Source: Bradyrhizobium japonicum USDA 6
GTDB lineage: Bacteria; Pseudomonadota; Alphaproteobacteria; Rhizobiales; Xanthobacteraceae
Length of the DNA: 64,000 bases
Reading direction: 5' to 3'
NCBI RefSeq assembly: GCF_000284375.1
Contig: NC_017249.1
Span: 1,426,001 to 1,490,000, forward strand
Below are positions 45,156 to 60,839 of the stretch, one piece after another. The notes below the pieces were generated by a model, which was given only the letters and a program-made list of their open reading frames with translations, was not told the DNA's origin and did no database searches. Every line of letters begins with the position of its first letter. Positions within the stretch are counted from its first letter, which is position 1. The translations under genes were made by a program, and so were the position numbers.

Positions 45156-45326
45156 GGGGCCCCTCTGGCAATCGACGGTGAAGCACTTCAGGCTGAAGCC
45201 GTTCAGCACTCCACGATTTCAATCAATGGTTGCGTCATGAAAAGCAGGTGCATTCTGTGCATAGTCCCGTTGAGGTAGCAAGCGGGATCGCGCCGCCGCG
45301 CCACCAGGATTCGCGCAACCGCGGGG

Positions 45327-46483: not shown

Positions 46484-47005
46484 GTGAGCTCCTTCGAGTT
46501 ACAGAAGAAGCTACCGGTTTATACAGGCGGGATGTGACGATTGGAAGGGGAGGGGGAAATTGAGGCTGCTTCGGCGGGACAGCCTTCGCTGTTTCGCATG
46601 GATAGACTTGCGCCTGGCTCGCCCAGCCGTAGCTGCGAAGCAGCGAAGGCTGGTGCGCCATTCAGAACAAAGATGCGAACTCGTATGTTATTGAGATATC
46701 AATATAATTTCTAGCCCATTAGCCCGTGAATGCTTCTCAACCTCCCGGAATGCATCACGCGGCTAGTTGTTTGAATTACCGTGGAGCTGGAAGGCGGCCG
46801 GTTCGGTCCGGGCTAAGCCCTTCCAATCCTGAGGTTTTTTGTGCACTCGTATAAATTGCCCCTTCACGACCGAACCAACCAATGCGATATCGGACGGGTA
46901 TATTGCCGGAAGCTCGATGGGACCACAGCGTCCTGTGCCGCCTAACCTCGCTTATACTTTGAGGCCGCGACAACGAACACCACGGAACGAGGAGAGGAGG
47001 CGTTT
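46484..47005. other. Gene-free boundary region before the helicase module
   Basis: The region holds no credible gene. Near its left end is an inverted repeat with 12-base arms cagccttcgctg (46580-46591) and cagcgaaggctg (46641-46652). From about 46660 to 46760 the sequence is unusually AT-rich for this genome (ttattgagatatcaatataatttc), which suggests a junction of inserted DNA and a possible promoter for the module. Confidence 0.6.
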
Positions 47006-47660
47006 CTGTCAAGCATCACCGCAGCCGATCTGGCAGCTGTGCTCTCCGGCGACCCCGAAGCTCTGGATGTTCATCTGTCGCTCGTTGACCGAGATGTCGT
47101 CATCGACGGATACCAGGTCAAAATTCACTGTCACTGCCTCACTGTCGACGGCAACGGGCGGGTATGCCAGCGTCACCCATGAAGGGATGCTGAAGCTTTA
47201 TTGGGGCGAATCTAAAATCTACAAAGATGCGGCCACCGCCATCAAAGACTGTCTGGCCTCGGTTGCGCCTTTCCTGATCGAGCCGGAGCACGAAGACGCT
47301 GGACGGGAGCGCGACCTCATTCTCTTGAGCGACAAGGCTGATTTGAGCGATCCGGCGTTGACCGAGGCGCTCAAACGCTACTTCGATAAGATGTCGCCAA
47401 TGTCCAAACGCGTTAAATATTGCGCTGTCGCCCTCGTGGGCTTTGATGCTGCCTTCTATCCTGGCGACAGAGCTCAAGCTATTGCGGACGAAATGAAAGA
47501 AGCGGCGCGGATCGAACTCAAGAAATGGAGCTCAACGATCGGAACGCGCCTGAAGAAAGAAAAACTGGAGCAGGTTGAAGTCGAGCTATTTTGCCTTCCG
47601 CTGCCGTCCGCCGAAGACTTCCGGGCCGCGTTCCTAAAGGCGATGGGGCAGACCGTATGA
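47006..47660 (+). pseudogene. hamA: Hachiman HamA-like (DUF1837) nuclease, degraded
   Basis: The N-terminal part (SSITAADLAAVLSGDPEALDVHLSLVDRDVV..KIHCHCLTVDGNGR) lies in one frame, opened by GGAGAGGAGG at 46991-47000 and a CTG at 47006 where a start codon is expected; that frame stops at 47180-47182. The C-terminal part (YASVTHEGMLKLYWGESKIYKDAATAIKDCLASVAPFL...ELFCLPLPSAEDFRAAFL) is in another frame and runs to 47660. GESK is the E-x-K half of the PD-(D/E)xK nuclease motif of HamA. From remembered homologues about 80-90 codons between the parts, including the metal-binding Asp, are missing. A short product from ATG 47094 or 47187 remains possible. The stop overlaps hamB (ATGA). Confidence 0.75.
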
Positions 47661-50173
47661 GCCTGAACGATTTGCAAGGCTGGCTCGTTGCTGAAGGTCT
47701 GCGCGAGGACCTCGATCAATTGACCCTACATACTGTCGTGGCTGAACTGGACAATATTGTACCGCCCACCGACAAGGCTGCCTCATTCGACTGGCCTCGG
47801 CTTTTGCTGGCAGGAAGCATACTCGCGCAGTCGGATCAACGGACCTATCAAGACGCAGCGCTTCGTATCGCCACTGCGGCAATCACGCTCTCCGACAGTG
47901 AGGCCATCAAAGATTCCGGCGCGGTTCTCTTAGGAAAGTTATCAAATTTTCGTGCGGTTTCGCTCGCGACCGAACGCGGGTTGCTCACTGCCGACGTTGA
48001 GGGACGGCTAGGGATGGCGTTGCGTATCGAAGCGCAGCGCCGCCAGATGGATCAGTCGATTCTAGTCCAATCCAGTGGGCGATGGATTCAGGTCAATGAC
48101 TTCCAACAGCGTTTCTGGAGCCAGGCTGACAATTACCAATGGCTTTCGGCATCCGCTCCGACAGCATCCGGTAAGACGTTCTTGGTCTTACAATGGCTGA
48201 TCGACCAAATCCGATCGACCGAGATGCATGTCGCTGTCTATTTGGCGCCGACAAGGGCGCTCGTTGCTGAGATCGAAGCAAATCTGGTCTCACTGCTCGG
48301 AGCCCGCAGCGGCATAGAAGTCTCGTCGCTTCCGATACGGGAAAAGCACGACAAAGCCCACGAAGGCGGTTCACGCGCTATCTTTGTGCTGACGCAGGAG
48401 CGCATGCACCTGCTGGCTAACGCCATTGGCGGCGCCTTCAAGGTCGACCTGCTCGTTGTCGACGAGGCACATAAGATCGGGGACAATCAACGCGGCGTCA
48501 TCCTTCAGGATGCCATAGAGCGCGCCAGTCGCTCCAATCGCACGCTTAAGCTCGTCTTCATCAGTCCTGCCACCCAAAACCCGCAGGAGCTTCTTGCAGA
48601 CGCTCCGGAAGGAGCTCACACCGCGTCGTTTGAAAGTGACGTTCCAACTGTGCTTCAAAATCTCATCGTGGCCGAGCAGGTGCCGCGTAAGCCAAAACTA
48701 TGGAAATTGTCGGCACGCAAACACGCGTCCTTGTTGCCGCTTGGTGTGGTCCAGCTCGGCAGCAGCCCGGGCTCGCTAAAGAAAAGGCTGGCATTCATCG
48801 CCGCTGCAGCTGGAGAGCGCGGCGGGACACTTGTCTACGCAAATCGCGCCTCCGATTCCGAAGACATCGCCGATCTCATCAGTCAGCTGATACCGGAAGT
48901 GCCATCTGACCCTGAATTGCTTGAGCTTGCAGATTTGGCACGCAAAGGCGTTCACCCACGCTACAGGCTCGCGCCGCTGGTCGAGCGCGGCGTAGCCTTT
49001 CACTACGGCAATATGCCGTCACTCATCCGCTCGGAGGTCGAGCGGCTGTTCCGCTCAGGCAAGATTCGATTCCTTGTCTGTACCTCGACGCTCATCGAAG
49101 GCGTCAATCTGTCTTGCCGAACCATTGTGCTGCGCGGCCCAAGAAAGGGCGTCGGACATCCGATGGAAGCGCACGATTTCTGGAACCTTGCCGGCCGTGC
49201 TGGCCGATGGGGTGATGAATTCCAGGGAAACATCATCTGCATCGATCCTCAGGACGCACAGGCTTGGCCTGATGGCGTTCCCGAGCGGGCTCGGTTCCCC
49301 ATCAAGCGCGAAAGCGACGCCGTGATCGAGCAAGGAGAGAGCCTTGCGGATTATCTGGACCGCCGAGCAACAACTGATTTAGCCGAGTTCGAGGATCCCA
49401 ACCAATTCGAGCAGGTCGCTTCATATCTGCTCGCTACATTTTTACGGCAGGGATCAATCGCACAATCCAGCCTCGCCAAGCGCCACAATCCGGCGATCAT
49501 CGAGCGGCTTGAAGCGAGCCTTGCCAATATCGCCGCGCAGATCGCGGTAGGTCCAGATATTGCGGCCCGACATCCGGGCGTTAGCGCCTTGGGCATGCAG
49601 CGCCTCCTCGAGGCATTCCGCAATTACAAAGGTGATGTCGAAAATCTATTGCCGGCCGCCGTCGATAGCCAGGATAGCTATGATCGCTTCGTGACGATCA
49701 TGCGTCGGATCAACCAGTATTTGTTTCCGGCGTTCACGCCAGACGGGATCATTCCACTTCACGCTCTGATCGTCGTGCAATGGCTAAAGGGCTTCTCTCT
49801 GTCTCGAATGATCGAGCGGAATATCGACTACCACCGTAGGAACGGCCGGTCATTCAAGCTGCCGGTCCTGATCCGCAGCACGATGGAGATGGTCGAACAA
49901 ATCGCGCGGTTTCGGGCGCCGAAGTATTTGTCCGCCTATGTCGACGTACTCAATATGCATCTAGCTGCAATAGGACGGGAAGACCTGATCGATGGTGATG
50001 TCGATATAGGAACGCAGCTCGAATTCGGCGTTTCTTCACGGACCTTACTGTCGCTGATCGAGCTCGGATTGTCTCCATTGTCTTGCGACGCGATTGATTG
50101 TCTTTTCGATTGTCCCAGTAGCTCAATCGCGACAGATGCTTCCAGATTCGTCGGCGTATCGCCAACGATATAG
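47657..50173 (+). CDS. hamB: Hachiman HamB-like DEAD/DEAH-box helicase
   Basis: The 838-residue superfamily 2 helicase starts at an ATG overlapping the hamA stop. Motif I APTASGKT is at 167-174, Ia LAPTRAL near 197-203, II VDEAH at 268-272, III SPAT at 303-306, V region TSTLIEGVNL near 477-485 and VI GRAGR at 513-517; all are intact. A C-terminal region of about 300 residues has no recognised domain. In Hachiman systems HamB senses DNA damage or phage DNA with HamA and releases its nuclease. The partner here is broken, so this helicase may be idle, act alone, or use the shortened HamA. Base composition is lower in GC than in core genes. Confidence 0.85.
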   Translation: MSLNDLQGWLVAEGLREDLDQLTLHTVVAELDNIVPPTDKAASFDWPRLLLAGSILAQSDQRTYQDAALRIATAAITLSDSEAIKDSGAVLLGKLSNFRAVSLATERGLLTADVEGRLGMALRIEAQRRQMDQSILVQSSGRWIQVNDFQQRFWSQADNYQWLSASAPTASGKTFLVLQWLIDQIRSTEMHVAVYLAPTRALVAEIEANLVSLLGARSGIEVSSLPIREKHDKAHEGGSRAIFVLTQERMHLLANAIGGAFKVDLLVVDEAHKIGDNQRGVILQDAIERASRSNRTLKLVFISPATQNPQELLADAPEGAHTASFESDVPTVLQNLIVAEQVPRKPKLWKLSARKHASLLPLGVVQLGSSPGSLKKRLAFIAAAAGERGGTLVYANRASDSEDIADLISQLIPEVPSDPELLELADLARKGVHPRYRLAPLVERGVAFHYGNMPSLIRSEVERLFRSGKIRFLVCTSTLIEGVNLSCRTIVLRGPRKGVGHPMEAHDFWNLAGRAGRWGDEFQGNIICIDPQDAQAWPDGVPERARFPIKRESDAVIEQGESLADYLDRRATTDLAEFEDPNQFEQVASYLLATFLRQGSIAQSSLAKRHNPAIIERLEASLANIAAQIAVGPDIAARHPGVSALGMQRLLEAFRNYKGDVENLLPAAVDSQDSYDRFVTIMRRINQYLFPAFTPDGIIPLHALIVVQWLKGFSLSRMIERNIDYHRRNGRSFKLPVLIRSTMEMVEQIARFRAPKYLSAYVDVLNMHLAAIGREDLIDGDVDIGTQLEFGVSSRTLLSLIELGLSPLSCDAIDCLFDCPSSSIATDASRFVGVSPTI

Positions 50174-50563
50174 CGCCCGGGCAACCGGATCACGCGGCGC
50201 GAACATGGCTGGGTTACTGACTGCCGGCCGGTCATCACTCATTGAACACCAGCCGTCCGCCTTAATGCAGATCTCGACTCGAGCGTCCCTTTGCGCTCGA
50301 TACGGATTATTTGTCCCACCGTTGTGAGCTTCCGTCCATTTTGCCGCGTCGGAGGCCGTTAACTTGTCTGCATCATTCTCGCACTGCTTTGCGATCTGAA
50401 TCAGACGGTCGCGGGGAAAAGCATAGTATCTCACGGCATGGGGAAGCAGCGCGAGCGCAATGGCTGCTGCCAACGTGAGCTTGATCAATCTCAGCAAATG
50501 GCGCCCCAACCGGCAAACAAAACAGTAGAAGAATGCTCGACAGGCTTCACCTCGGGGCCGCAC
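50123..50563 (-). CDS. Membrane-anchored protein of unknown function
   Basis: The frame gives up to 146 residues from GTG 50563; the true start may be a TTG near 50486. One N-terminal hydrophobic helix (IKLTLAAAIALALLPHAV) is followed by FPRDRLIQIAKQCENDADKLTASDAAKWTEAH and ICIKADGWCSMSDDRP with three cysteines, ending in RWRYADESGSICRD. The composition is protein-like. Its 3' end overlaps the hamB 3' end by 51 bases on the opposite strand, which is odd and may reflect the insertion of the module. Confidence 0.6.
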   Translation of the reverse strand: MRPRGEACRAFFYCFVCRLGRHLLRLIKLTLAAAIALALLPHAVRYYAFPRDRLIQIAKQCENDADKLTASDAAKWTEAHNGGTNNPYRAQRDARVEICIKADGWCSMSDDRPAVSNPAMFAPRDPVARALYRWRYADESGSICRD

Positions 50564-50579
50564 GCTGCGCCAAGGTATT

Positions 50580-50816
50580 TCACCGCTTCACAGGCTCAGT
50601 CGGTTTCGCGGTATCCCATGGGCGTTTGCCGGACGCGTCACGATCCCATGGGCGCGCAACCGATGCTGATTTCTCTTCCAATACATCTTTAGCGCGTGCG
50701 GCCTTGATCTGGTCGCGAATTGACATTTCTGTTGCAGCAGGCGCTTGCTCGGCCGCTCGAACATTAGCACTGGATGACAAGAAGAGGATCGCGCCGACCA
50801 CCAAGATCTTTTCCAT
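50580..50816 (-). CDS. Small exported protein of unknown function
   Basis: The 78-residue product from ATG 50816 has a signal peptide (KILVVGAILFLSSSANVRA) and a charged mature part (TEMSIRDQIKAARAKDVLEEKSASVARPWDRDASGKRPWD). The repeated R/K-R-P-W-D is distinctive. A GTG at 50837 is an alternative start. It lies upstream of, and on the same strand as, the gene at 50123. Confidence 0.65.
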   Translation of the reverse strand: MEKILVVGAILFLSSSANVRAAEQAPAATEMSIRDQIKAARAKDVLEEKSASVARPWDRDASGKRPWDTAKPTEPVKR

Positions 50817-51112
50817 CAATGCCGATAGCACGATCACCCGTTGTTGTCCGATCTATCTTCGACCCCAGCGCGGAGCTAACAACAACGATCGCCTTCCACG
50901 CAACGCAGTCGACGCAGTGATAGTCACCCGAAGGCTGCCGTGCAGCTTACGCAGGTGTGCCAGGCTAGACAGCGGACTTTGAGATCCTCGTGCGGGCCGT
51001 CGGACCAGCAACCATTTTCTGCCACATCTCTTGTCCTCCATCACCGATCGAGGCTGCACAAGGGGCATCGGTCGCTGGCACATGGAACTCCCGTCTGTCT
51101 CCGGAGTGCGTC

Positions 51113-51358
51113 ATGACCCGGTACTATTTCGATCTCGTCGACGATGACGGCCTGTTCCTTGACGAGGAAGGTCTGGAACTTGCTGACTTTCGGGCGGCGC
51201 AGGTTGAGGCGGCAAAGTCATTGGCCGACATGGCACGGGATGCGACGTATGAATCTGGCAGTTCTTCAAAGCGCCATATGGCAATTGCGGTACGGGACGA
51301 CGCCGGTCCCGTGATGCATGTGGGGTTCGAATTTGGCGACGGAGGGCGGCAACAGTGA
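51113..51358 (+). CDS. DUF6894 family small protein (copy 1)
   Basis: The 81-residue protein starts at ATG 51113 after a CCGGAG site. TRYYFDLVDDDGLFLDEEGLELADFRAAQVEAAKSLADMARDA and the later AIAVRDDAGPVMHVGFEF are the DUF6894 pattern: a Y-F-D strand, D-E-E-G turn, long helix and two strands. Rhizobia carry many copies; no function is known. Two more copies lie at 57882 and 58599. Confidence 0.82.
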   Translation: MTRYYFDLVDDDGLFLDEEGLELADFRAAQVEAAKSLADMARDATYESGSSSKRHMAIAVRDDAGPVMHVGFEFGDGGRQQ

Positions 51359-51472
51359 CAGGGCCTATGGGTGCCGGCGTTGCTCCTCGATCCACCTTCG
51401 AGCATCCATGAGGTGGCCCCTCGTCGCGCCGCAATAGCGGTCAAGCGTCCGCCTCACGCTTGACTGCGCCGC

Positions 51473-51820
51473 CTACCTCTTTTTTGCCGACCCGAAATCC
51501 GGCTGCCAGGCGACCTCTTTCCGGCTGGGCTGTGCTGCGATCACCTTGGCTTTTTCCTTCTTCGGCTTCTTGGCTTCGCGATTGCCGCGTTGCTGTCCCT
51601 TGGCCATGACGTCCATCTCCTGTTGGGGTTCAAGTTCTTTCAGTTCGTCCGACTGCAGGATGCGCCCGCGAGGCGTGCAGACGCGGACATCCATGTAACC
51701 GTCGCGCAGCAGCTTTCGCGCGAGCCGCAGTGCAACGATCGCGCTGCCACGGCCGAGATTGGCGCTGCCATATTCGTTGGTCCCCATGACCAGGTAAGGC
51801 ACGCGCGTTGCCTTAGCCAT
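51473..51820 (-). CDS. Small basic protein, possible in-frame fusion
   Basis: The 115-residue protein starts at ATG 51820, which overlaps the end of the tiny membrane-protein gene by eight bases. The first 65 residues (YLVMGTNEYGSANLGRGSAIVALRLARKLLRDGYMDVRVCTPRGRIL) look like a small alpha/beta unit. The last 48 (AKGQQRGNREAKKPKKEKAKVIAA) are strongly basic and resemble a separate short rhizobial protein; an internal ATG at 51606 with AGGAG upstream could start it independently. No function is known. Confidence 0.68.
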   Translation of the reverse strand: MAKATRVPYLVMGTNEYGSANLGRGSAIVALRLARKLLRDGYMDVRVCTPRGRILQSDELKELEPQQEMDVMAKGQQRGNREAKKPKKEKAKVIAAQPSRKEVAWQPDFGSAKKR

Positions 51821-51911
51821 TGAGGATGGCCGCAGCACACACCAGAAGCAAAAGGAATAACGGAACGATCACCGGCGGGACCATCCATTCCGAGGCGCGA
51901 AAACGCGACAT
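51813..51911 (-). CDS. 32-residue membrane protein, EWxVPP family
   Basis: A complete small frame runs from ATG 51911 to TAA, with AGGAG six bases before the ATG. The peptide is MSRFRASEWMVPPVIVP followed by FLLLLVCAAAILNG: a short basic head, the E-W-x-V-P-P-x-x-V-P motif, and one hydrophobic helix. Its stop overlaps the start of the next gene by eight bases, so translation is coupled. A second member, frameshifted, is found at 61991-62091, which supports this being a real gene family. I know no name for it. Confidence 0.72.
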   Translation of the reverse strand: MSRFRASEWMVPPVIVPLFLLLLVCAAAILNG

Positions 51912-52166
51912 CGAGCGCTCCTGCAACTCTGTCGGCGGGAGCGCACGTGACCCTCAGTCACCGGTCGATGCCGTTGAGAAGTGCGGTGATGCGACAACCC
52001 TACGCCTGCGAGGCGCCAATAGCGAGTGCTAAAACGCAGTTCGGGCAAGGCTGCACTGCGACGTCAGCGCGCGGCAATGGCGAATGTGCTGGCTATTGCT
52101 CAATGACGGGCGCATGGTCGTCGCTGTCGGTCGGTTAGGGCCCCTCTTGCAAAAAGGCAGGCGTGC

Positions 52167-52433
52167 ATGACCATCCGCTCACGGCGAGAGACCGTCACGT
52201 TCAGACATCCGTTCCGAATCCGCGGCATCGAGCGGCTGCTGCCCGCCGGCGCCTACGAGGTCATCACTGATGAAGAAACGATCGAGAGTCTCACCTTCTC
52301 GGCCTATCGCCGCATCGCGACGATGATTATGGTGCCGGCGGAAGGCGTTCGCGACTCAATGGAGATGCTCTCGATCGGCTCAGTCGATCTCGCCAATGCG
52401 CAGGCTGCGGATGCGAGCGCCGCGCATGACTGA
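52167..52433 (+). CDS. Conserved small protein of unknown function
   Basis: The 88-residue soluble protein starts at ATG 52167. RETVTFRHPFRIRGIERLLPAGAYEVITDEETIESLTFSAYRRIATMIMVP is mostly beta and is a pattern I associate with small rhizobial proteins of unknown role. Its end overlaps the start of the next gene by eight bases, so the two are coupled. Confidence 0.75.
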   Translation: MTIRSRRETVTFRHPFRIRGIERLLPAGAYEVITDEETIESLTFSAYRRIATMIMVPAEGVRDSMEMLSIGSVDLANAQAADASAAHD

Positions 52434-52722
52434 CCATCCCGTAGATCTCGACAAGCATCGCGGCATGGCTGCGCAGAAGGCTACCGATCTGCGCCGCGCG
52501 CTGGCAGACGTCGAGGCCCATGTCAGGGAATTGCGTGAGCGGGAGGCCGAACTTGAACACCGCATGATGACGGTGCCCGCCGCTTCCTGGCCGGAGGCTG
52601 CGGTCAAGGCGCGGCACCTGCTCAACCTCTATGCCGCGAGCCTGCCCGCCGAGGATACGAGGCACCGGGCGCTGGTCGCGTCGTTGCTCGACGACTTCGT
52701 CCGGCTCTCGGGCGAGGACTGA
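52426..52722 (+). CDS. Small coiled-coil protein of unknown function
   Basis: The 98-residue soluble protein from ATG 52426 overlaps the preceding gene by eight bases. Residues about 12-50 form a charged coiled coil (QKATDLRRALADVEAHVRELREREAELEHRM), followed by an all-helical end (KARHLLNLYAASLPAEDTRHRALVASLLDDFVRL). No family is recognised. Confidence 0.75.
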   Translation: MTDHPVDLDKHRGMAAQKATDLRRALADVEAHVRELREREAELEHRMMTVPAASWPEAAVKARHLLNLYAASLPAEDTRHRALVASLLDDFVRLSGED

Positions 52723-52783
52723 CGGCAGAGCAACTCTCCGCACGCGCGATCGTGCCAGCAACGGTCACTTAAAGGAGGAAGCC

Positions 52784-53062
52784 ATGACGCTCACGAGCGG
52801 TCGCTACATCGGCCACGAATATGACCGGATGATCGTGCTGTTCTCGATGCAGGACGGCGGTAAGGAAATTCCCTGCGCGATCTCGACCACCGCGATGGAC
52901 TACCTTGAGCGCGGCCCGCAGGTCCGCCCCGAGCAGCGCGAAGCCCAATTCGTCCGCCTACGCGACCGCATCGAGGCCCGCGCCGCCAGCAAGTATCGAG
53001 CGACGGAACTTGAAGGAGATCCTCGGGGTATCGTGCTGCGCGGCATCGATTTCAGAACCTAA
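52784..53062 (+). CDS. DUF1488-like small protein
   Basis: The 92-residue protein starts at ATG 52784 with an AAAGGAGGAAGCC ribosome site. RMIVLFSMQDGGKEIPCAISTTAMDYLE matches DUF1488, a small beta-rich family of unknown role common in proteobacteria. The C-terminal part (RDRIEARAASKYRATELEG) is helical. It follows the two coupled small genes at 52167-52722 and may belong to the same transcript. Confidence 0.78.
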   Translation: MTLTSGRYIGHEYDRMIVLFSMQDGGKEIPCAISTTAMDYLERGPQVRPEQREAQFVRLRDRIEARAASKYRATELEGDPRGIVLRGIDFRT

Positions 53063-53076
53063 CAACATGCCATGTC

Positions 53077-53226
53077 GTGATCTGGGAATCGTTTAGGCGA
53101 ATTCTTCACAAGTTGGCCCCGGCGCCCGATAACTCGCCCAGCAGCGACGGACAGGCCGATGCTCAAGACAACGTCGATGCGTTCTGGACGTCGCAAGGAA
53201 CCCGTAAGCGACTGAAGGCCAGTTAA
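53077..53226 (+). CDS. Possible 49-residue protein
   Basis: A GTG-initiated frame 15 bases after the DUF1488 gene reads WESFRRILHKLAPAPDN, then a polar stretch, then VDAFWTSQGTRKRLKAS. The composition is protein-like, but there is no ribosome site. Its TAA shares the TTAA sequence with the stop of the converging gene at 53223. This is a weak candidate. Confidence 0.35.
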   Translation: MIWESFRRILHKLAPAPDNSPSSDGQADAQDNVDAFWTSQGTRKRLKAS

Positions 53227-53426
53227 CGATCAATAGTTTTTCTTGAACGATCGACGCGGACGGCCCTGAACTCCGATGGTCCCTCGATCAAACGCTGCCT
53301 TCGCATCGCTTGATCATCGCCATTCGCAGAATTGTCCGCCCTCTCGTCTATAACTTTGCCAGCCAGGTGAGCGGCACGCGCGCGTTGGGTCAGAATGCGA
53401 TGATCACTCGTGCCCGTCTTCGTCAT
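53223..53426 (-). CDS. Small polar protein, RADxSA family (copy 1)
   Basis: The 67-residue protein starts at ATG 53426, eight bases after CAGGAG. It is hydrophilic: TQRARAAHLAGKVIDERADNSANGDD then MRRQRLIEGPSEFRAVRVDRSRKT. The product of 62714-62923 aligns over nearly all of it (LAGxVxDxRADxSA, RxQRLxxGPxEFRxVRVDRSxKT), so this is a genuine paralogous family. The function is unknown. Confidence 0.75.
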   Translation of the reverse strand: MTKTGTSDHRILTQRARAAHLAGKVIDERADNSANGDDQAMRRQRLIEGPSEFRAVRVDRSRKTIDR

Positions 53427-53557
53427 CTCGATCTCCTGGATTACAGACCGCGACTGAAATCTGGCAGCTACGCACCCCCGCTTTTGCTGCGTCGAACTCG
53501 GCGCAACCACCATGGCAATTAATCTATGGCAATAACGTTCCTCTACGCGCATTCCCG

Positions 53558-53836
53558 TTACGCGCGCTCCTTGCCGGCGATCTGCGGCAAGGGAGGCTTG
53601 CGCTCGGGAAGCTTCTTCTTCGGGGGCGCCGGCAGCAAACCTTCCCTGATGGCCTGCTTCCGAGCGAGCTTACGGGCCCGGCGAATAGCCTCGGATTTTT
53701 CGCGCGTCTTTCTTTCGGAAGGCTTTTCGTATGAGCGCCGCTGCTTCATTTCGCGAAAGACACCCTCGCGTTGCATCTTCTTCTTCAGAACACGAAGGGC
53801 CTGGTCGACATTGTTGTCGCGAACAAGTACCTGCAA
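53558..53836 (-). CDS. rpsU: Ribosomal protein bS21
   Basis: The 92-residue protein has the bS21 core [65 protein letters not shown]. The start is TTG 53836: this codon sits exactly where homologues begin M-Q-V-L-V, a GAGGA site lies upstream, and no ATG is in frame nearby. The C-terminal tail ([22 protein letters not shown]) is a proline/lysine-rich extension beyond the usual end. Its location among accessory genes suggests an extra copy rather than the main rpsU. Confidence 0.9.
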
Positions 53837-54129
53837 TTGACATTCCTCGCTGGGCTGCGAATGCGCAAGTCCTGCATGCAGCCAATTGCGCAGGAGTCTC
53901 GTGGCGATTGCGATGATGGGAGTGACGGCGTCTTCTTCCGCCGGCCTCGAACAAGCCGGTCTATGCGTCACGGCAATCAAGTTCGGTAGAGCAACGTGAC
54001 CACTGTCAGCCGCGCTGTCAATGGATAGAGCCGTTCCCACACGTCGTTTGGAGCCCCTCGATCGCAAAGGAACGTTCGCCCACACGCGCTCGTGTAGCAG
54101 CGCTCTCGGAAACAATTTTGAGTGTTGCC

Positions 54130-54157
54130 TTGCAAAAAGCCGAAAATGATATATATT
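54130..54157 (+). promoter_or_regulatory. Probable sigma-70-type promoter of the cold-shock gene
   Basis: TTGCAA (54130-54135), a 16-base spacer and TATATT (54152-54157) stand in an AT-rich stretch. Transcription from about 54164 would give a leader of roughly 120 bases before the cold-shock ATG, a length typical of cspA leaders. Confidence 0.55.
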
Positions 54158-54237
54158 AAAGAAATTCGATTAGCCGCTGTGCCTTGTTGAACGCGCCCGC
54201 GGGCTCCTTTTCCAAAGACATCGACGAAGTTGAAGTA

Positions 54238-54258
54238 ATCGCGTGCTCGTCACGCGAT
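54238..54258 (+). promoter_or_regulatory. Hairpin in the cold-shock gene leader
   Basis: A perfect eight-base stem, atcgcgtg / cacgcgat, surrounds a ctcgt loop, 18 bases before the GGAGA ribosome site of the cold-shock gene. It may form part of a temperature-sensitive leader fold; this is inference from position. Confidence 0.5.
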
Positions 54259-54286
54259 GCGCGCTCGTGCGCTTTGGAGAATGAAA

Positions 54287-54496
54287 ATGACGACAGGTAC
54301 TGTTAAGTGGTTCAACGGCCAAAAAGGCTTTGGATTTATCCAGCCGACCGACGGCAGCAATGATGTGTTCGTTCACATCAGCGCGGTCGAACGGGCTGGC
54401 CTTGCGGGTCTCGCCGAGGGCCAAAAGGTTAACTTTGAGGCCAAGACCGACAAGATGCGCGGCAAAGTGAGCGCCGAAAACCTCTCGCTGGCTTGA
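54287..54496 (+). CDS. Cold-shock protein (CspA family)
   Basis: The 69-residue RNA/DNA chaperone has the RNP1 and RNP2 motifs KGFGFI and VFVHI, with the opening [23 protein letters not shown] six bases upstream fixes ATG 54287; an ATG two codons earlier overlaps the ribosome site. It unfolds mRNA secondary structure, often under cold or stationary stress. It is divergent from rpsU, with a long leader carrying a hairpin. Confidence 0.95.
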
Positions 54497-54539
54497 TTTG
54501 TCGACGTCGCTTTCACGGATGTACTGAAACGGCAGGCTG

Positions 54540-54576
54540 CCCGCTCGATCTTCGGATGGAGCGGGTTTTGTTTTTC
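54540..54576 (+). terminator. Rho-independent terminator with TTCG loop
   Basis: The arms cccgctcgatc and gatggagcggg (one mismatch) close a ttcg tetraloop and are followed by ttttgttttt. It stands 44 bases after the cold-shock stop codon. Confidence 0.88.
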
Positions 54577-54592
54577 ATAATGCGGGTTGAGG

Positions 54593-54835
54593 ATGATCGC
54601 CAGGAAATCGGCAGAGCCGTCGCCCGAAGGCATCGCGCGCTCGAACCGCAAGCGATTGGCCGCTGAAGACGGCGCGCGGGCATTGGCTGACGCGGAACGG
54701 CAGGCCATCGAGGTGCGAAAGAACATGGCGCGCCTCCGCGAGCTGCGTGAGGCCAAGGAAGTTGCCGACATCGCGTTTCGGGCATCGCTGCCTGCGCCCG
54801 CACCGACGAAGCGCAAAAACAGGTCGGCGCGATAG
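54593..54835 (+). CDS. Small charged helical protein of unknown function
   Basis: The 80-residue protein from ATG 54593 is mostly one long charged helix (RKRLAAEDGARALADAERQAIEVRKNMARLRELREAKEVADIAFRAS) with a basic tail (TKRKNRSAR). A TTG two codons earlier is an alternative start. This type of short helical protein is frequent in bradyrhizobial accessory regions. No function is known. Confidence 0.68.
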   Translation: MIARKSAEPSPEGIARSNRKRLAAEDGARALADAERQAIEVRKNMARLRELREAKEVADIAFRASLPAPAPTKRKNRSAR

Positions 54836-54890
54836 TCGAACTCGCGATCGCACGGCATCATCGTGAAACCGAATTGCACGGGCTGGGTGG

Positions 54891-55106
54891 ATGCCTAGAG
54901 TCAAAGCAGACGGCGGGGGAACGATCACTTTCATGCTTGCGCTTGGCGCAGCACGGCAGATGTGCAGGCTTACAACGACGTTTCAGACCGACAAGCAGGC
55001 CTTCAGTTATCTTCACAAATATCGAAAAGAATTCGAGCATATAGCCCGTGCGCGGCTCGCCTCCGGCGAGCTCGAAAACGGAATCGTCGTGCTCTCGATG
55101 CTCTAA
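54891..55106 (+). CDS. Small protein of unknown function
   Basis: The 71-residue frame starts at ATG 54891. ITFMLALGAARQMCRLTTTFQTDKQAFSYLHKYRKEFEHIARARLASGELENGIVVLSML is protein-like, with a helical middle rich in basic and aromatic residues. There is no clear ribosome site, and no family is recognised. Confidence 0.55.
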   Translation: MPRVKADGGGTITFMLALGAARQMCRLTTTFQTDKQAFSYLHKYRKEFEHIARARLASGELENGIVVLSML

Positions 55107-55120
55107 ATCGAGAGCGACGA

Positions 55121-55306
55121 TTATGCCCGGGAGTCTTTCGGCTTGGCTTCACGCGCCAATCGGGCCGCCTTCAGACGCTCGTGATTATCGTGCAGGGATT
55201 GCTGATCTTTCGCGTAATCGGTCATTGGTTTTTCTGTTCGCACCAATTTGAACGCGTTGTTCGCCTCCCGCAGATGCCGGGCAGCCTTCGCTTCGTTTTT
55301 CATCAT
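55121..55306 (-). CDS. Small basic protein of unknown function
   Basis: The 61-residue protein starts at ATG 55306 (or the adjacent ATG 55303) after TGGAGATC. It is hydrophilic and helical: KAARHLREANNAFKLVRTEK, then DNHERLKAARLAREAK. It has no recognised domain. It converges on the gene ending at 55106. Confidence 0.65.
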   Translation of the reverse strand: MMKNEAKAARHLREANNAFKLVRTEKPMTDYAKDQQSLHDNHERLKAARLAREAKPKDSRA

Positions 55307-55614
55307 TTTGATCTCCAGGAATTGGATCAGCGCCGGTCTGGGGCTCGGATATTCGCCATGACAGCCCAAGCGATATTTGCCGGGAGCGGATCAGCGTGAA
55401 CGCTCCGCTTTGCGCCAGATCTTTCGCGAGGTCTCAGCGCGTTGTCGAACAACGGCAAGCGGACGCTGCCTATAGTTATCAACGCTTTCGCGGGACGCAT
55501 GTTCCCGAGGGGCGAGCCGAAGCCCACGCCGCCGCTCGTCTGCCAGACGTTCAGCTAAAATGACAACCAAGTGTGGCGCCGCTCACGAGCTAAGCGCTTC
55601 CACCAGAACTCAGG
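55307..55614. other. Gene-free region
   Basis: I see no frame with a ribosome site and protein-like composition, and no repeat. The short frames present on both strands look like chance. Confidence 0.45.
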
Positions 55615-56622
55615 TTAGCACATCATCGGCGTTGTGTGCGCGTTTCCTTGCCGATTCCTGAAGGCGGTAACCGCCATATGCACCAAGTGCAGTTTGCCCT
55701 CGACTGCGGGTGAAATGTCGAACGGGTACGCGTCGGCAAGGCCAAGTGAGCGGTTGAGGCGGTTGATCGTCAGAGCGAGCGGGGTCCACAACTCAAGGAG
55801 CGCACCGAAATCGCTTTCCAGATACGGGTCATTCAGCGTGTGCTTTCCGCGCGCGTCCAACGACAACGGAAGTCCTGCCAGGGAATCCAGGGTCGAGACG
55901 ATGTGCAGGAAGTGAGCGAAAGTCTCTGCCCAATCCTCCCAGGGATGAGACGTCGCATACATGCTAATGTGACTCGCCGGATCGCAAGACCAATCCTGAC
56001 GGGCATAATAATAGGCAAGCGCAGCCTGGTAGTTCTCTGTCTCGTCGCCAAACACCCGCCGAAACGGCGCTCGAAAACCCGCTTCGTGGATCAGGGCATT
56101 CCAGTAAAAGTGCCCTATCTCGTGTCGAAAGTGACCAAGCAGGGTGCGATAGGGTTCGCGAAAGGAAACACGCCTGATCTCGCGTTGTACGTCATCGGCC
56201 TCCGCAAGGTTGAGCGTTATCAGGCCGGATTCGTGACCGGTCAGGACCGGCCCATGCTCGTCCGAGAGAATCTCGAATGCCAGGCGAAATCCACCCGCGA
56301 ACGCGATCGGCACGCGAAGCCGTCTCAGGTCGTAGATCAGCCTGCGCTTGGCTTCCTCCACGCGCTTCCAAAGGGCTACGTTACGGGGATTCTGTGTGGC
56401 GGGAATGACATGGGTCAGGGAGCAGGACATGCAGTAGGAAGTCGTGGAAACCGCGCACCAGTTGCAACCGATGATATTCCGATTGACGCATTCAAGAGCA
56501 CTTTCCGCACCGATCATCGCCATATTCTCGGGATCGAAGATCAACGGCTGCATGCAGCCGTTGCATTTGGAGAGCTCGAAGGCCGATAGTTGCCCGCAAT
56601 GAGGACATTTGAAATCTCTCAT
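55615..56622 (-). CDS. Putative zinc metallopeptidase with N-terminal zinc ribbon
   Basis: The 335-residue soluble protein has an N-terminal zinc ribbon (Cys6/Cys9 and Cys20/Cys23), a second cysteine set (Cys45, 53, 56, 64, 67), and a metallopeptidase domain with HEIGH at 167-171 (FRHEIGHFYW) and a downstream DETENYQAALAYYYARQDW. This matches the zinc-ribbon plus Peptidase_Mx type. Substrates are unknown. The ATG overlaps the stop of the 56-residue gene upstream (ATGA), and the pair is divergent from a transglutaminase gene. Confidence 0.88.
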   Translation of the reverse strand: MRDFKCPHCGQLSAFELSKCNGCMQPLIFDPENMAMIGAESALECVNRNIIGCNWCAVSTTSYCMSCSLTHVIPATQNPRNVALWKRVEEAKRRLIYDLRRLRVPIAFAGGFRLAFEILSDEHGPVLTGHESGLITLNLAEADDVQREIRRVSFREPYRTLLGHFRHEIGHFYWNALIHEAGFRAPFRRVFGDETENYQAALAYYYARQDWSCDPASHISMYATSHPWEDWAETFAHFLHIVSTLDSLAGLPLSLDARGKHTLNDPYLESDFGALLELWTPLALTINRLNRSLGLADAYPFDISPAVEGKLHLVHMAVTAFRNRQGNAHTTPMMC

Positions 56623-56789
56623 GATGGCGCACGACCATTGAGGGTGTCGATCAACGCACGTTGCTTCTTCAACGCGCGCTTCCTCAGAATATCAGCATCA
56701 ACCTCGCTCACGGTTCGACGCGCGCCCTGGTAAGAGGCCATCTCAGATACAGGCCGCGCCCTCCAGTCTTGCGTGGGTTGAATGGACAT
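56619..56789 (-). CDS. 56-residue protein coupled to the metallopeptidase
   Basis: From ATG 56789 (GGAG ten bases upstream) a 56-residue polar, helical peptide is encoded: TQDWRARPVSEMASYQGARRTVSEVDADILRKRALKKQRALIDTLNG. Its TGA overlaps the ATG of the metallopeptidase gene. The frame extends upstream to 57125, but that part is antisense to the transglutaminase start. A small partner or regulator of the peptidase is plausible but unproven. Confidence 0.6.
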   Translation of the reverse strand: MSIQPTQDWRARPVSEMASYQGARRTVSEVDADILRKRALKKQRALIDTLNGRAPS

Positions 56790-57011
56790 GGGCGTGACTC
56801 CGGATCGCATTTTCATCTTCAACAAAGCCTTCAGTTTGAAACGGGTTCCGGTCAGGCGCTGGGCGGATGTTCTCCACTCAATCGAGCATACGGCTGGCGG
56901 TCGGGACAGCGATGGCATACTGTCCACACCCGAGCGCTCGCAGCCTTCATCGGTGACGATGCCCAAATGGGGGTTCGTAACGATCGCGATCATCTCTTTG
57001 GAGCTACTTCC

Positions 57012-57821
57012 ATGAAGATCCGCGTCGGCTTCGAGATGATCTACGACTTTCCGCAACCGACCCCTCTTATCGCAGTTGTCGGCACTCACTTCACACGGGC
57101 ATCCGACATTGTCCTGCCCGATCATCTTGTCAGCGAGCCGTCGGTGCCGATCACGCCCTACCGCGACGGTTTCGGGAATTGGTGCAGTCGTCTTGTCGCG
57201 CCAGCCGGCCGCATGCGCCTCTCAGCGGACGGCACAGTCCGAGACAGCGGTCTACCCGACGTGATCGTACCATCGGCCCAACAGCACGCAGTGGAAGATC
57301 TTCCGTCGGACACCATCGTATATTTGCTCGGCAGTCGGTATGTCGAGACTGACCGACTTACCGACGTGGCGTGGAAGTTGTTCGAGAAGACCGCGTCCGG
57401 TTGGGCACGGGTCAAGGCGATCTGCGACTTCGTGCATAACCACATTGCTTTCGGCTACGAGCACGCCCGCCCGACCAAGACCGCCTGGGAAGTGTTCAAC
57501 GAAGGCAAAGGCGTTTGCCGGGACTATGCACATCTGGCTATAGCGTTCTGCCGCTGCATGAACATTCCTGCGCGCTACTGCACCGGCTATCTCGGTGACA
57601 TCGGCATGGCGCCTCCATATGCCGCCGGCGATTTCGCGGGCTGGTGCGAAGCCTATATCGGTGGTCGCTGGTACACGTTCGATCCACGTAACAACATTCC
57701 GCGGATTGGTCGCGTCCTAATCGCGCAGGGCCGCGATGCCGCCGACGTTCCGATCACCCAGACATTCGGACCCAACACGTTGCTAAGTTTCAAGGTTTGG
57801 GCCGACGAACTCACCGGCTGA
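57012..57821 (+). CDS. Transglutaminase-like protein
   Basis: The 269-residue protein has an N-terminal beta domain and a transglutaminase core with nucleophile Cys169 in GKGVCRDYAHLAIAFCRCMNIPARYCTGYLGD and Asp224 in GGRWYTFDPRNN. The usual catalytic His, in a H-A-W motif before the E-Y-I-G-G-R-W strand, is G-W here (FAGWCEAYIGGRW), a state I recall in this alphaproteobacterial subgroup. It may act as a protease or amidase. ATG 57012 was chosen at the start of the conserved domain. It is divergent from the metallopeptidase operon. Confidence 0.88.
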   Translation: MKIRVGFEMIYDFPQPTPLIAVVGTHFTRASDIVLPDHLVSEPSVPITPYRDGFGNWCSRLVAPAGRMRLSADGTVRDSGLPDVIVPSAQQHAVEDLPSDTIVYLLGSRYVETDRLTDVAWKLFEKTASGWARVKAICDFVHNHIAFGYEHARPTKTAWEVFNEGKGVCRDYAHLAIAFCRCMNIPARYCTGYLGDIGMAPPYAAGDFAGWCEAYIGGRWYTFDPRNNIPRIGRVLIAQGRDAADVPITQTFGPNTLLSFKVWADELTG

Positions 57822-57881
57822 TCGCAAAAGGGCTGCAATGCGACGGTCCATATCGAATCCCCGGAACCGCGAAAGACAGAA

Positions 57882-58121
57882 CTATTGCCCGGCCTTATTC
57901 GCTTCGAAGGTCAACGCGGCTTGAAATACGTGCCCGGCTTCCGTTCGAACCTCGATAGCAACGTCCGGCCGGTTTTCCTCACCGGCCAAATCGCGGGCCA
58001 GTCCCGCCAATGTGTGAGCCGCCTCCATCTCGGCCTCACGTTGCGTTGAAAACTCTATTCCGTCTTCGTCCGGGTACAGTTCCCGATCGTCTCTGATATC
58101 GAAGAAATATCGGATCATCAT
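57882..58121 (-). CDS. DUF6894 family small protein (copy 2)
   Basis: The 79-residue protein opens MMIRYFFDIRDDRELYPDEDGIEFSTQREAEMEAAHTLAGLARD, the DUF6894 pattern, and ends with VAIEVRTEAGHVFQAALTF. Both ATGs at 58121 and 58118 could start it; CAGG lies upstream. It is similar to the genes at 51113 and 58599. The function is unknown. Confidence 0.8.
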   Translation of the reverse strand: MMIRYFFDIRDDRELYPDEDGIEFSTQREAEMEAAHTLAGLARDLAGEENRPDVAIEVRTEAGHVFQAALTFEANKAGQ

Positions 58122-58185
58122 GAGCGCCTGTTGGAAAGATGTCTGCGCCAGCGCGAGAGGTCCGCAAGCCGATCCAGGATTCGAA

Positions 58186-58383
58186 TTACATTGGCGGCTG
58201 AAGTCCCGGAGAACTGAGCCACCTGTTCACCTCCAGGGCAACATCGATCTGCCGGGCCTTCTGAAGTAGTTCGGCGCGCCGGACGCAAACAGGCATCTCT
58301 TGAGCCTGCTGGCGCAAATTGATCGCCTCTTGAGTGAGACGGTATTCGAATGTCGAAGATTGAGACTCGCTACGAACCTGCAC
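58186..58383 (-). CDS. Small helical protein, KARQxDVA family (copy 1)
   Basis: The 65-residue protein begins at GTG 58383 after AGGGAGAA. RLTQEAINLRQQAQEMPVCVRRAELLQKARQIDVALEVNRWLSSPGLQPP is helical. It aligns with the product of 59095 over the second half (LxxKARQxDVAxxxxxWxxSPxLQxP). Each of the two copies lies downstream of a DUF6894 gene or close by, suggesting that the pair was duplicated together. Confidence 0.7.
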   Translation of the reverse strand: MQVRSESQSSTFEYRLTQEAINLRQQAQEMPVCVRRAELLQKARQIDVALEVNRWLSSPGLQPPM

Positions 58384-58598
58384 GGCTTTCTCCCTTGAAT
58401 GGGCGGGAGCGCGACAGGCGTTCTCATCACCGATGGTTGCCTCGGGTGGGGCGGTGACGACCTTGATATATGTGCTCGAAGGCGCTCCGACCAGACATGA
58501 TTGAAGAAATGTTTTTGGACAGCCTCACGGCTAGTCGAGTACTCCAACTGGAGCCGGAGACCCAGTCGAGATGGAGGCGTCTGTTCTCACAGGCAGCC

Positions 58599-58835
58599 TC
58601 AATGTTTCGTGCTCTCACTTCGATAGACGATCGATACGCAGAAAAGCCGTTCAGTCATCGAGCGCACTTCAACCGCCAAATCTGGACGACTGCCTTTGAA
58701 CACGGACTCTCTGGCGATCCCCGTCAGCGTTTGCATCGCTTCAACTTCAGCAGCCTTCTGATTGGGCAGTCGTAGTCCTTCCTCGTCGGCGAAAAACTCG
58801 CGGCCACTCTGGATGTCAAAGAAATAGCGTTCCAT
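58599..58835 (-). CDS. DUF6894 family small protein (copy 3)
   Basis: The 78-residue protein from ATG 58835 (GGAG eight bases upstream) reads MERYFFDIQSGREFFADEEGLRLPNQKAAEVEAMQTLTGIARES and ends AVEVRSMTERLFCVSIVY. It is the third DUF6894 member in this window. The function is unknown. Confidence 0.8.
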   Translation of the reverse strand: MERYFFDIQSGREFFADEEGLRLPNQKAAEVEAMQTLTGIARESVFKGSRPDLAVEVRSMTERLFCVSIVYRSESTKH

Positions 58836-59094
58836 AAGAGCACTCCACTTCCGTGCAGGCGGGAGCGCTCTCGGTCTCTCAGTCACCGACGCCTACGGGA
58901 CAAGCCTCGGCCGGTGATCGGAAGACAATACGCCAGCTCTAACTTGGTTGCCAGAGATTCCGGGGCCAGCCGGGTCTAAGCAGCGGCAACTTGGACAGGC
59001 TGCCTCCGTAAGCGCCTCAGAATCGAATTCGAGCCATCGGGCATCGACCACCATCACCTGACTTGGTCAATGGATTGTTCCGACGACAAGACTA

Positions 59095-59295
59095 TCAGAC
59101 CGGTAGCTGTAATTCCGGCGAATGCGCCCATTCATCCAGGTGGCAGGCGACATCGGCCTGACGGGCCTTCTTGATCAGCGCATCCCTTTCTGGTCCCGGC
59201 GGGAGCTTGGCGGCCTGGTCAAGAACCTCTTTGGACCACGCTGTTAGTCGCTCCTGCAACGTGAGTTGTTGTTTGAAACGACGTCGCTTCTGCAT
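59095..59295 (-). CDS. Small helical protein, KARQxDVA family (copy 2)
   Basis: The 66-residue protein starts at ATG 59295, eight bases after TTGGAG; an ATG at 59304 is too close to the ribosome site. A basic head (QKRRRFKQQ) precedes LQERLTAWSKEVLDQAAKLPPGPERDALIKKARQADVACHLDEWAHSPELQLP. It is a paralogue of 58186-58383. Confidence 0.72.
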   Translation of the reverse strand: MQKRRRFKQQLTLQERLTAWSKEVLDQAAKLPPGPERDALIKKARQADVACHLDEWAHSPELQLPV

Positions 59296-59558
59296 AGCGT
59301 TCATCTCCAAGTTGATGCCGACAACTGGCGATCTGCTCCGGGCAAAGCCGCGGGCTTACGGTGAATATAACGCTACAGAACAGATAGGTTCGAACCATAA
59401 CAAAGATCAACGTGACCGAAAAAAATCTGACGCAAGCCGCACACAGCGGCTCTCCATTCAATGCATCGAGATTCGGCTCGCCGACAGGCCGATACAGAAA
59501 GCGTCTTTGGTGTCTTGAGCCACTTACTCAATCTACTCTGTTTACTCGCAAGAGCGGC

Positions 59559-60839
59559 CTAAGTCGTTGCAGGCATGCTGAACTCAAAAACCGTTTCTTT
59601 GCCGCTCGAGACAGCCTTAAGCGTCCCGTCATGGGCTCGCGCAATCTCGGATGCGATGTAGAGGCCGAGACCTAAGCCTTGCTGGCTGGGACGGTCGCCG
59701 CGGGTGTACGGCAGAAACAGGCTTTGCATCGCCTTATCCGAGATCGGTGTACCGTAGTTCGTCACCCTGAGGGTAAATCTTCCATCCCCCGTCTTCGCAA
59801 AAACAATGATTGGCTTGTCGATGTCACCATAGGTGATCGCATTCCCGAGTAAATTGGAGAACAATTGGCTGATCTTGATGCGGTCGCATCGGACCGGCTC
59901 GTTTAGGGCAATGTCGGTCTCGATGTTAAGGTCTGGCCACGCCAGACGCATTTCGTTGACAACGTGTTCGATCACGGGGGTCAGTGGCTCGTTTGCGTCG
60001 GGCCTGATCGTCAATCCGCCGCCGAGGCGGCCGCGGGCAAAATCCATGATGTTGTCCACCAGACCCGCCATTCGCATCACGGACTTCTGGATTGATGCCG
60101 CGATGTCGGGCGCTCGCTCGCTATTCGCATCTTTGAGGAGAACGCGCATGCCGCCGGCTATTGACGCCAGCGGATTGCGGAGGTCGTGTCCTAAGACGCC
60201 GATAAACTGCTCCCGCAGCTCCGACGTCTTTCGTTCATCAAGCAGATCGGCTCGAATGCTTTTCAGATCCGCTTCGGCAGACTGCCGCCCCACCTCACTG
60301 GCCAGCAGGCTCTCCGACCTCGCGGCAAGGTCGGCTTGAGAGCGCTCGATGCGCTCGTTGAGATCGAGCTGCGCAGCGATCAATTCCCCAAAGAGCCGAA
60401 CGCTATCGACGATCTCAGGTCGATCTATTTCTCGTGGTCGCGGATCAATCGCGCAAAGCGTGCCCCAAATCTCTCCGTTCGCACGCTTGATCGGAGCCGA
60501 GATGTAGCTCCTGAAACCATACATGCGCGGCGTTGGGTGGTTGCAAAATTCGGCATCCGTCTCGACGTCATCGATGACAACGAGTTCGCCATGGTCGCGA
60601 ATCTCATTGCAGATCGTCGTTTCGACGCGAAGCTCGCTCCCTTCCACGAGGCCGAAATCGATGCTGTCACGAACGGCACAGCACAACCACCGATCGCTGG
60701 TCACTCTGGCAACCGCTACAAAGCCCATGCCCGTGATTCGGGTTACAGCATCCAAAATTTTGGGAACAGCGTTGATCTGCTGAACAGCAGTGATGTCGGC
60801 GCTGAGGTCAGTCATCATTGAACTATAATCAGGGAGCAT
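59559..60839 (-). CDS. GAF-domain histidine kinase
   Basis: This 426-residue cytoplasmic sensor (start uncertain: ATG 60839, 60818 or 60815) has an N-terminal GAF domain (about 20-155, with CAVRDSIDFGL and YISAPIKRANGEIWGTLCAIDP), a coiled coil, the H box GVLGHDLRNPL with His218, and a HATPase domain (SNLLGNAITYG, VTNYGTPIS, QQGLGLGLYIASEIARAHDG). The G1 box has Asn where Asp is usual, as in some GAF kinases. There is no membrane helix. It probably phosphorylates the divergently encoded receiver protein. Confidence 0.9.
   Translation of the reverse strand: MLPDYSSMMTDLSADITAVQQINAVPKILDAVTRITGMGFVAVARVTSDRWLCCAVRDSIDFGLVEGSELRVETTICNEIRDHGELVVIDDVETDAEFCNHPTPRMYGFRSYISAPIKRANGEIWGTLCAIDPRPREIDRPEIVDSVRLFGELIAAQLDLNERIERSQADLAARSESLLASEVGRQSAEADLKSIRADLLDERKTSELREQFIGVLGHDLRNPLASIAGGMRVLLKDANSERAPDIAASIQKSVMRMAGLVDNIMDFARGRLGGGLTIRPDANEPLTPVIEHVVNEMRLAWPDLNIETDIALNEPVRCDRIKISQLFSNLLGNAITYGDIDKPIIVFAKTGDGRFTLRVTNYGTPISDKAMQSLFLPYTRGDRPSQQGLGLGLYIASEIARAHDGTLKAVSSGKETVFEFSMPATT

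Follow-up and report, generated by a model that had tools for sequence, protein, structure and literature searches.

The window, by which we mean the entire 64,000-nucleotide stretch of DNA analysed, holds a hamA gene split between two reading frames, followed by a hamB gene with a foreign 3' end. We used as reference the intact operon of Bradyrhizobium sp. YR681 (NZ_AKIY01000178.1, locus L003), in which HamA (315 codons), HamB (868) and HamC (97) are unbroken. The features of the locus are as follows.

46651..46708, + strand: 58 bp marking the module's left edge; YR681 carries this stretch twice in direct orientation, once on either side of hamABC (L003 4702 and 9047).
46996..47000, + strand: Shine-Dalgarno-like GGAGG before the hamA CTG, read from the window's letters, with the spacing computed on the identical YR681 leader.
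47006..47182, + strand: N-terminal fragment of hamA, 58 residues, running from the CTG start through 53 homologous codons and 5 in the shifted frame to a TGA stop at 47180-47182.
47163..47165, + strand: deletion junction in hamA with a 2-bp overlap (TA); 293 bp of YR681 (L003 5216-5508) are missing.
47165..47660, + strand: C-terminal remnant of hamA in the other frame, keeping GESK (the E and K of D-E(X)K); the first in-frame ATG after the junction is at 47187.
47657..50173, + strand: hamB ORF of 838 codons, of which codons 1-806 are homologous to HamB (HamB2 profile and YR681 alignment).
50069..50073, + strand: 5-bp microhomology TTGTC at the 3' truncation junction of hamB (alignment to YR681 and to genomes G007 and G034).
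50074..50173, + strand: foreign tail of the hamB ORF, 32 residues; the same DNA occurs in G007 and G034 without hamB before it.
50069..59840, no strand: accessory right flank, 98.2-99.4% identical to G007, G034, G002 and G072, each over part of its length and within the stretches fetched.

Both genes belong to Hachiman, and the locus lies on the low-GC margin of an accessory region. The hamA-type ORF (46839-47660) matched the PADLOC HamA2 profile at 2e-72 and Pfam HamA at 6.5e-29, but only from profile positions 145 of 315 and 93 of 230, respectively. It overlaps the hamB ORF (47657-50173) by ATGA at 47657-47660, and hamB scored 1310 bits against HamB2 (profile positions 1-813 of 865), so that a DUF1837/HamA gene stands beside a HamB-family helicase, as in type II Hachiman. 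A family search detected DEAD and Helicase_C domains in the window's HamB, and its sequence contains APTASGKT, DEAH and GRAGR, which we take to be the helicase motifs (Walker A, DEAH and motif VI). The protein thus retains the N-terminal region and the Ski2-like core with motifs I, II and VI of a sensor helicase. Hel308 and DNA polymerase theta helicases belong to the same Ski2-like superfamily, yet repair-type models scored far below their cut-offs on this protein (96 bits for the best NCBIfam helicase; 72 bits for Hel308, against a cut-off of 1200). GC content is 0.56-0.58 at 47-51 kb, compared with mostly 0.63-0.70 between 3 and 42 kb of the window. The initial annotation had proposed a Hachiman (HamA/HamB) pair with DUF1837/HamA features in the C-terminal half of the first gene, an ATGA start overlap of the helicase gene and lowered GC, and each of these points is confirmed, the family assignment by the profile searches on hamA and hamB, including the comparison with repair helicases. 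Its start at 47006 also coincides exactly with the CTG start codon of hamA; the module, however, is not intact.

Relative to YR681, the window is 96% identical in DNA over 46651-47164 and 99.1% identical over the 2911 bp of 47163-50073. The 293-bp deletion and the accompanying frameshift remove hamA residues 54-150, counting the CTG start of YR681 as residue 1. D147, E165 and K167 of HamA (GADG...GESK; YR681 numbering without the start residue) were invariant in 17 of 17 aligned HamA sequences. The active-site Asp lies within the deleted part, and the E and K are retained past the frameshift; the window therefore has no complete hamA frame with the D-E(X)K of an effector nuclease. For E. coli HamA, PMC12278908 describes this motif as conserved and the E138A,K140A mutant as losing defence; deletion of HamA or HamB, or change of E138 and K140, ablates it. 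We rejected a programmed frameshift because 293 bp, including the Asp, are absent relative to an otherwise near-identical YR681 copy.

Ribosomes might nonetheless restart at ATG 47187, which lies four bases past the stop codon at 47180-47182 and opens the frame with GESK, and the resulting C-terminal fragment might work with the shortened HamB. Such a fragment would lack the active-site Asp and everything before it, however, and probably also two of the three HamB-contact regions published for HamA (30-63 and 102-117 in ECOR31 numbering, PMC12278908). The purine stretch GAAGGG, moreover, abuts ATG 47187 with zero spacing. We consider functional re-initiation hardly probable at all.

The second gene had been described as an intact superfamily 2 helicase, a description that was not confirmed. 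In addition to the profile match ending at position 813, DNA homology ends at 50073 (codon 806), and residues 807-868 of YR681 HamB (62 residues) are replaced by 32 unrelated ones, so the full-length C terminus is lost. The 1.6 kb that begins at 50069 matches G007 and G034 at 99.4-99.6% identity; in those genomes it has no hamB before it, and the DNA of the tail sits downstream of a small ORF, which is presumably DUF3606-like. This occurrence without a preceding hamB (L019, L020) led us to reject the tail as a family-specific C terminus. Both junctions, in hamA and in hamB, are sharp, with overlaps of 2 bp and 5 bp. In the best 120 of 1325 relatives, HamB measures 857-880 aa in 116 cases, compared with 806 homologous residues in the window. 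Within residues 807-850 of the lost tail, an alignment of 25 HamB sequences, the window's own row included, shows conservation of at least 90% at 17 positions and lists C827 as invariant. From this conservation, losing the tail would be expected to have an effect. In the structure models of YR681 HamB and HamA, both of low confidence (pLDDT 65 and 61), the HamB tail appears as helices. PDB searches with these models, to which we give little weight, returned Hel308/HamB-type helicases and, weakly, E. coli Hachiman (8zue_A, E 7.9e-3). By sequence, the best PDB match to YR681 HamB was chain B of 9wh1 (8.8e-44, residues 148-811); it aligns along the C-terminal half of HamB too, and its label, 'DNA polymerase theta (Helicase domain only)', looks odd. 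HamA had no significant PDB match by sequence.

The helicase core (Walker A, DEAH and motif VI region) is open and complete in the window, and HamB could conceivably have been retained by itself in a different role, DNA repair for example. Upstream of the junction, polarisation by NAS96.2 assigns 6 synonymous codon changes and 1 non-synonymous change relative to YR681 to the window lineage, which would fit retention; the YR681 lineage shows 7 synonymous changes and 2 that are not, and 5 more changes (3 synonymous, 2 not) are unpolarisable. The divergence from YR681 is nevertheless too small to separate retention from recent loss, and the ATGA translational coupling to hamA is probably lost, because the frame opened by the CTG already stops 474 bases before hamB. 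We regard a separate role for HamB as very unlikely. As far as the sequences go, the codon changes indicate that the break is recent and nothing more; a signal of decay is not yet visible.

The third gene of the operon is absent. No HamC (DUF3223) was found beside hamAB of the window, and a search with YR681 HamC, itself a match to PADLOC HamC2 at 2.8e-43, gave nothing significant there (best E 0.86). In six of the six loci L003 to L008, YR681 among them, where ORFs were judged by eye, hamC follows hamB. The same holds for all seven annotated plasmid regions among the eight opened (one unannotated) out of 32 plasmid matches. The PADLOC authors named hamAB with HamC 'type II' in 2021, and PMC8565338 reports that the type II system of Sphingopyxis witflariensis DSM 14551 protects E. 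coli and gives the role of HamC as unknown. The ancestor of the window's locus would have had hamC at this position.

At the same site in G002, the left flank is 89% and the right flank 98.5% identical to the window, with about 6.4 kb of other sequence between them. The module thus sits at the junction of ordinary and recently shared DNA, which supports the horizontal origin that had been proposed earlier from gene order, coupling and lower GC, and the location at the edge of an accessory region. Assembly errors might be invoked for the breaks; but the 9.2-Mb genome is a single contig with an estimated completeness of 100%, each of the two breaks is a multi-base rearrangement with a short overlap, and the right flank recurs at 98.2-99.4% identity in four other genomes. 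We consider the chance of such errors negligible.

The 58-bp stretch at the left edge is a dispersed repeat, GG[CT]GCGCCATTCAGAA[CT]AAA..., with an AT-rich end and sometimes in near-palindromic pairs (window 46651-46708; L003; L140, L146 and L147). Its 19-base core, allowing at most one mismatch, was found in 128 of the 265 genomes of the genus, against 0 matches for the control. The idea that it bounds mobile defence cassettes was weakened by the copy in L140, which by eye lies between what look like ordinary genes; a dispersed intergenic repeat of the genus is therefore likelier than a cassette boundary. Beside the Hachiman locus of G248, two copies enclose a neighbouring module (L141 3383-9284). 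Its products are a protein of 848 aa that has no Pfam match, one of 530 aa that combines TCAD9 (ternary complex associated domain 9) with an APH-like part, and a third scoring just under the DUF3800 cut-off; the module is possibly another conflict system. Elsewhere in the window, the product of 42408-45209 (933 aa) carries the catalytic domain of a T6SS Tle1-like phospholipase (PF09994, 228 bits), and an ORF at 53558-54115, in the accessory region, has a ribosomal protein S21 domain (69 bits) after a long N-terminal stretch; its true start is probably internal.

We conclude that the locus is very probably what is left of a type II Hachiman operon (hamA-hamB-hamC) after recent decay, with no working defence by itself. 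A type II operon would have reached a Bradyrhizobium genome within accessory DNA and would then have been broken by two illegitimate deletions at short microhomologies, whose order and cause we infer. The 293-bp deletion would have removed the central part of hamA, active-site Asp included, and destroyed its reading frame; the other would have removed the last 62 codons of hamB together with hamC. At most, the locus could yield a 58-residue HamA peptide, a C-terminal piece of HamA without the Asp, and a tail-less HamB; since only these could be made, it most likely gives no defence by itself. Intact relatives should act like HamAB, in which the HamA nuclease is held by the HamB helicase: for the ECOR31 system, PMC12278908 describes HamB as surveying DNA, with damage-driven helicase action activating HamA.

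The same genome carries a second Hachiman locus (G000:C1:7920391-7923391, L035), on an island beside tRNA-Val. There, HamA is open over 316 codons from a CTG (217 bits) and HamC is open (88 bits), but comparison with Bradyrhizobium manausense SZCCT0344 shows HamB to be broken at residue 456 by a deletion-inversion. The two loci are 72% identical in the C-terminal halves of HamA and 64% identical over HamB residues 1-456. When the genome was searched with the HamA model, HamB and the HamC model, no complete Hachiman operon came up, and its only DUF3223 match was that of the second locus. The initial annotation's functional HamAB defence module is accordingly left without support, both genes being damaged and hamC absent. 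By these searches, the genome holds two half-broken Hachiman loci, complementary for hamA and most of hamB.

This complementarity raises the possibility that the window's HamB works in trans with HamA, which is intact at the second locus (C1:7920391), and with the HamC encoded there. The open genes there and the similarity of the two loci speak for such a pairing, as does the retained N-terminal region of the window's HamB, since HamA contacts the N-terminal bundle of HamB in E. coli according to PMC12278908. If true, defence would be split over two loci, each supplying what the other lost. The window's HamB, however, lacks the conserved last 62 residues. The second-locus allele is common to six genomes (G000, G005, G021, G058, G072 and G213), and in the five others the sole HamB matches at E 1e-8 are the broken HamB itself, so the allele spread without such a partner. 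Its hamA, identical in five of the six genomes with one synonymous change in G021, may be intact just by being recent. Per 1-kb bin, the DNA to the right of tRNA-Val is 98.8-100% identical and the left flank 86-96% (very short bins set aside; coverage starting at 7.8 kb in G058 and ending at about 11 kb in G072). This recent spread of a near-identical island explains the identity of hamA, and we rejected purifying selection as a sign of its use. Pairing in trans is, in our judgement, distinctly unlikely, and the decayed remnant remains our preferred reading of the window's locus.

Comparison with known systems places the locus within its family. One close relative is that of YR681, whose HamB is encoded identically by G248 (100%); both belong to the same genus, in agreement with the earlier impression of a Bradyrhizobium-like genome. 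YR681 differs in its intact three-gene operon, another left neighbour and the 58-bp repeat on both sides. The S. witflariensis DSM 14551 system (NZ_NISJ01000011.1, L006) has the same gene order as the window, a HamB 70% identical to the window's and a HamA 61% identical in the C-terminal half; the system tested (PMC8565338) was complete, whereas the window has damaged hamA and hamB genes and no hamC. HamAB of E. coli ECOR31 (PDB 8VX9), described in PMC12278908 as a two-protein complex, has both families and the nuclease motif D-E(X)K in common with the window's locus, but its HamB is 1174 aa long and it is distant in sequence; YR681 HamB matches 8vx9_B at 1.8e-15. Relatives of HamA were scarce in the samples drawn, occurring in 5 of 385 genomes of the class and 3 of 398 of the phylum (own genome included); none were found among phage records or, in a close-relative scan, in viral contigs.

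We also examined the start codon of hamA at the site homologous to the YR681 start, placed by ungapped extension from the match in contexts with at least 58% HamA identity. Among 19 distinct contexts (24 listed, five with less than 40% identity left out), 14 have CTG, 2 TTG and 3 ATG. The 14 CTG contexts (window 47006; L003 5057; L004, L005, L006, L007, L008, L046, L095, L098, L099, L103, L107 and L109), two of which are identical over the 22 bases upstream, come from Bradyrhizobium, an Acetobacteraceae MAG, Sphingopyxis, an Edaphobacter MAG, Rhizobium, Agrobacterium, Sulfitobacter and others. Between the CTG and the upstream in-frame stop there is no ATG, GTG or TTG in 9 of the 14; 5 have one. 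A purine-rich, Shine-Dalgarno-like stretch precedes the CTG, as GGAG 5-8 bases before it in 10 and as GGGG 4-9 bases before it in 4. The start is already annotated at the CTG in the plasmid records L103 and L109, and some records, L107 for one, set it elsewhere. To judge from these contexts, hamA of the type II clade appears mostly to start with CTG after a Shine-Dalgarno-like sequence, across distant hosts, and the literature searched, in part judged by the titles listed, yielded no paper on this. The pattern suggests that weak initiation at CTG may limit a costly nuclease. A recurrent CTG start would explain mis-set gene starts.

Most loci of this clade in the genus are broken. Counting HamB matches of at least 58% identity in 265 genus genomes, with weaker matches dropped and pieces of one locus counted once, we found 14 loci in 13 genomes. 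Only four (G248, G259, G076 and G277) are full length in one frame; the ten broken loci, namely the window, the six-genome island allele, G080, G218 and G276, represent five distinct breakages. The remnant in G080 (L017/L036) consists of an N-terminal part of hamA adjoining hamB 752-868, that in G218 (L077/L142) of an N-terminal part of hamA with hamB 68-307 in two frames, and that in G276 (L080) of hamB 46-204 with a stop. For annotation, the window serves as a correction: an HMM tool alone would call a match here on the very high scores of both models, although the two genes are each incomplete. For the family, it adds a clear case of recent decay of a defence system by deletions at short overlaps.
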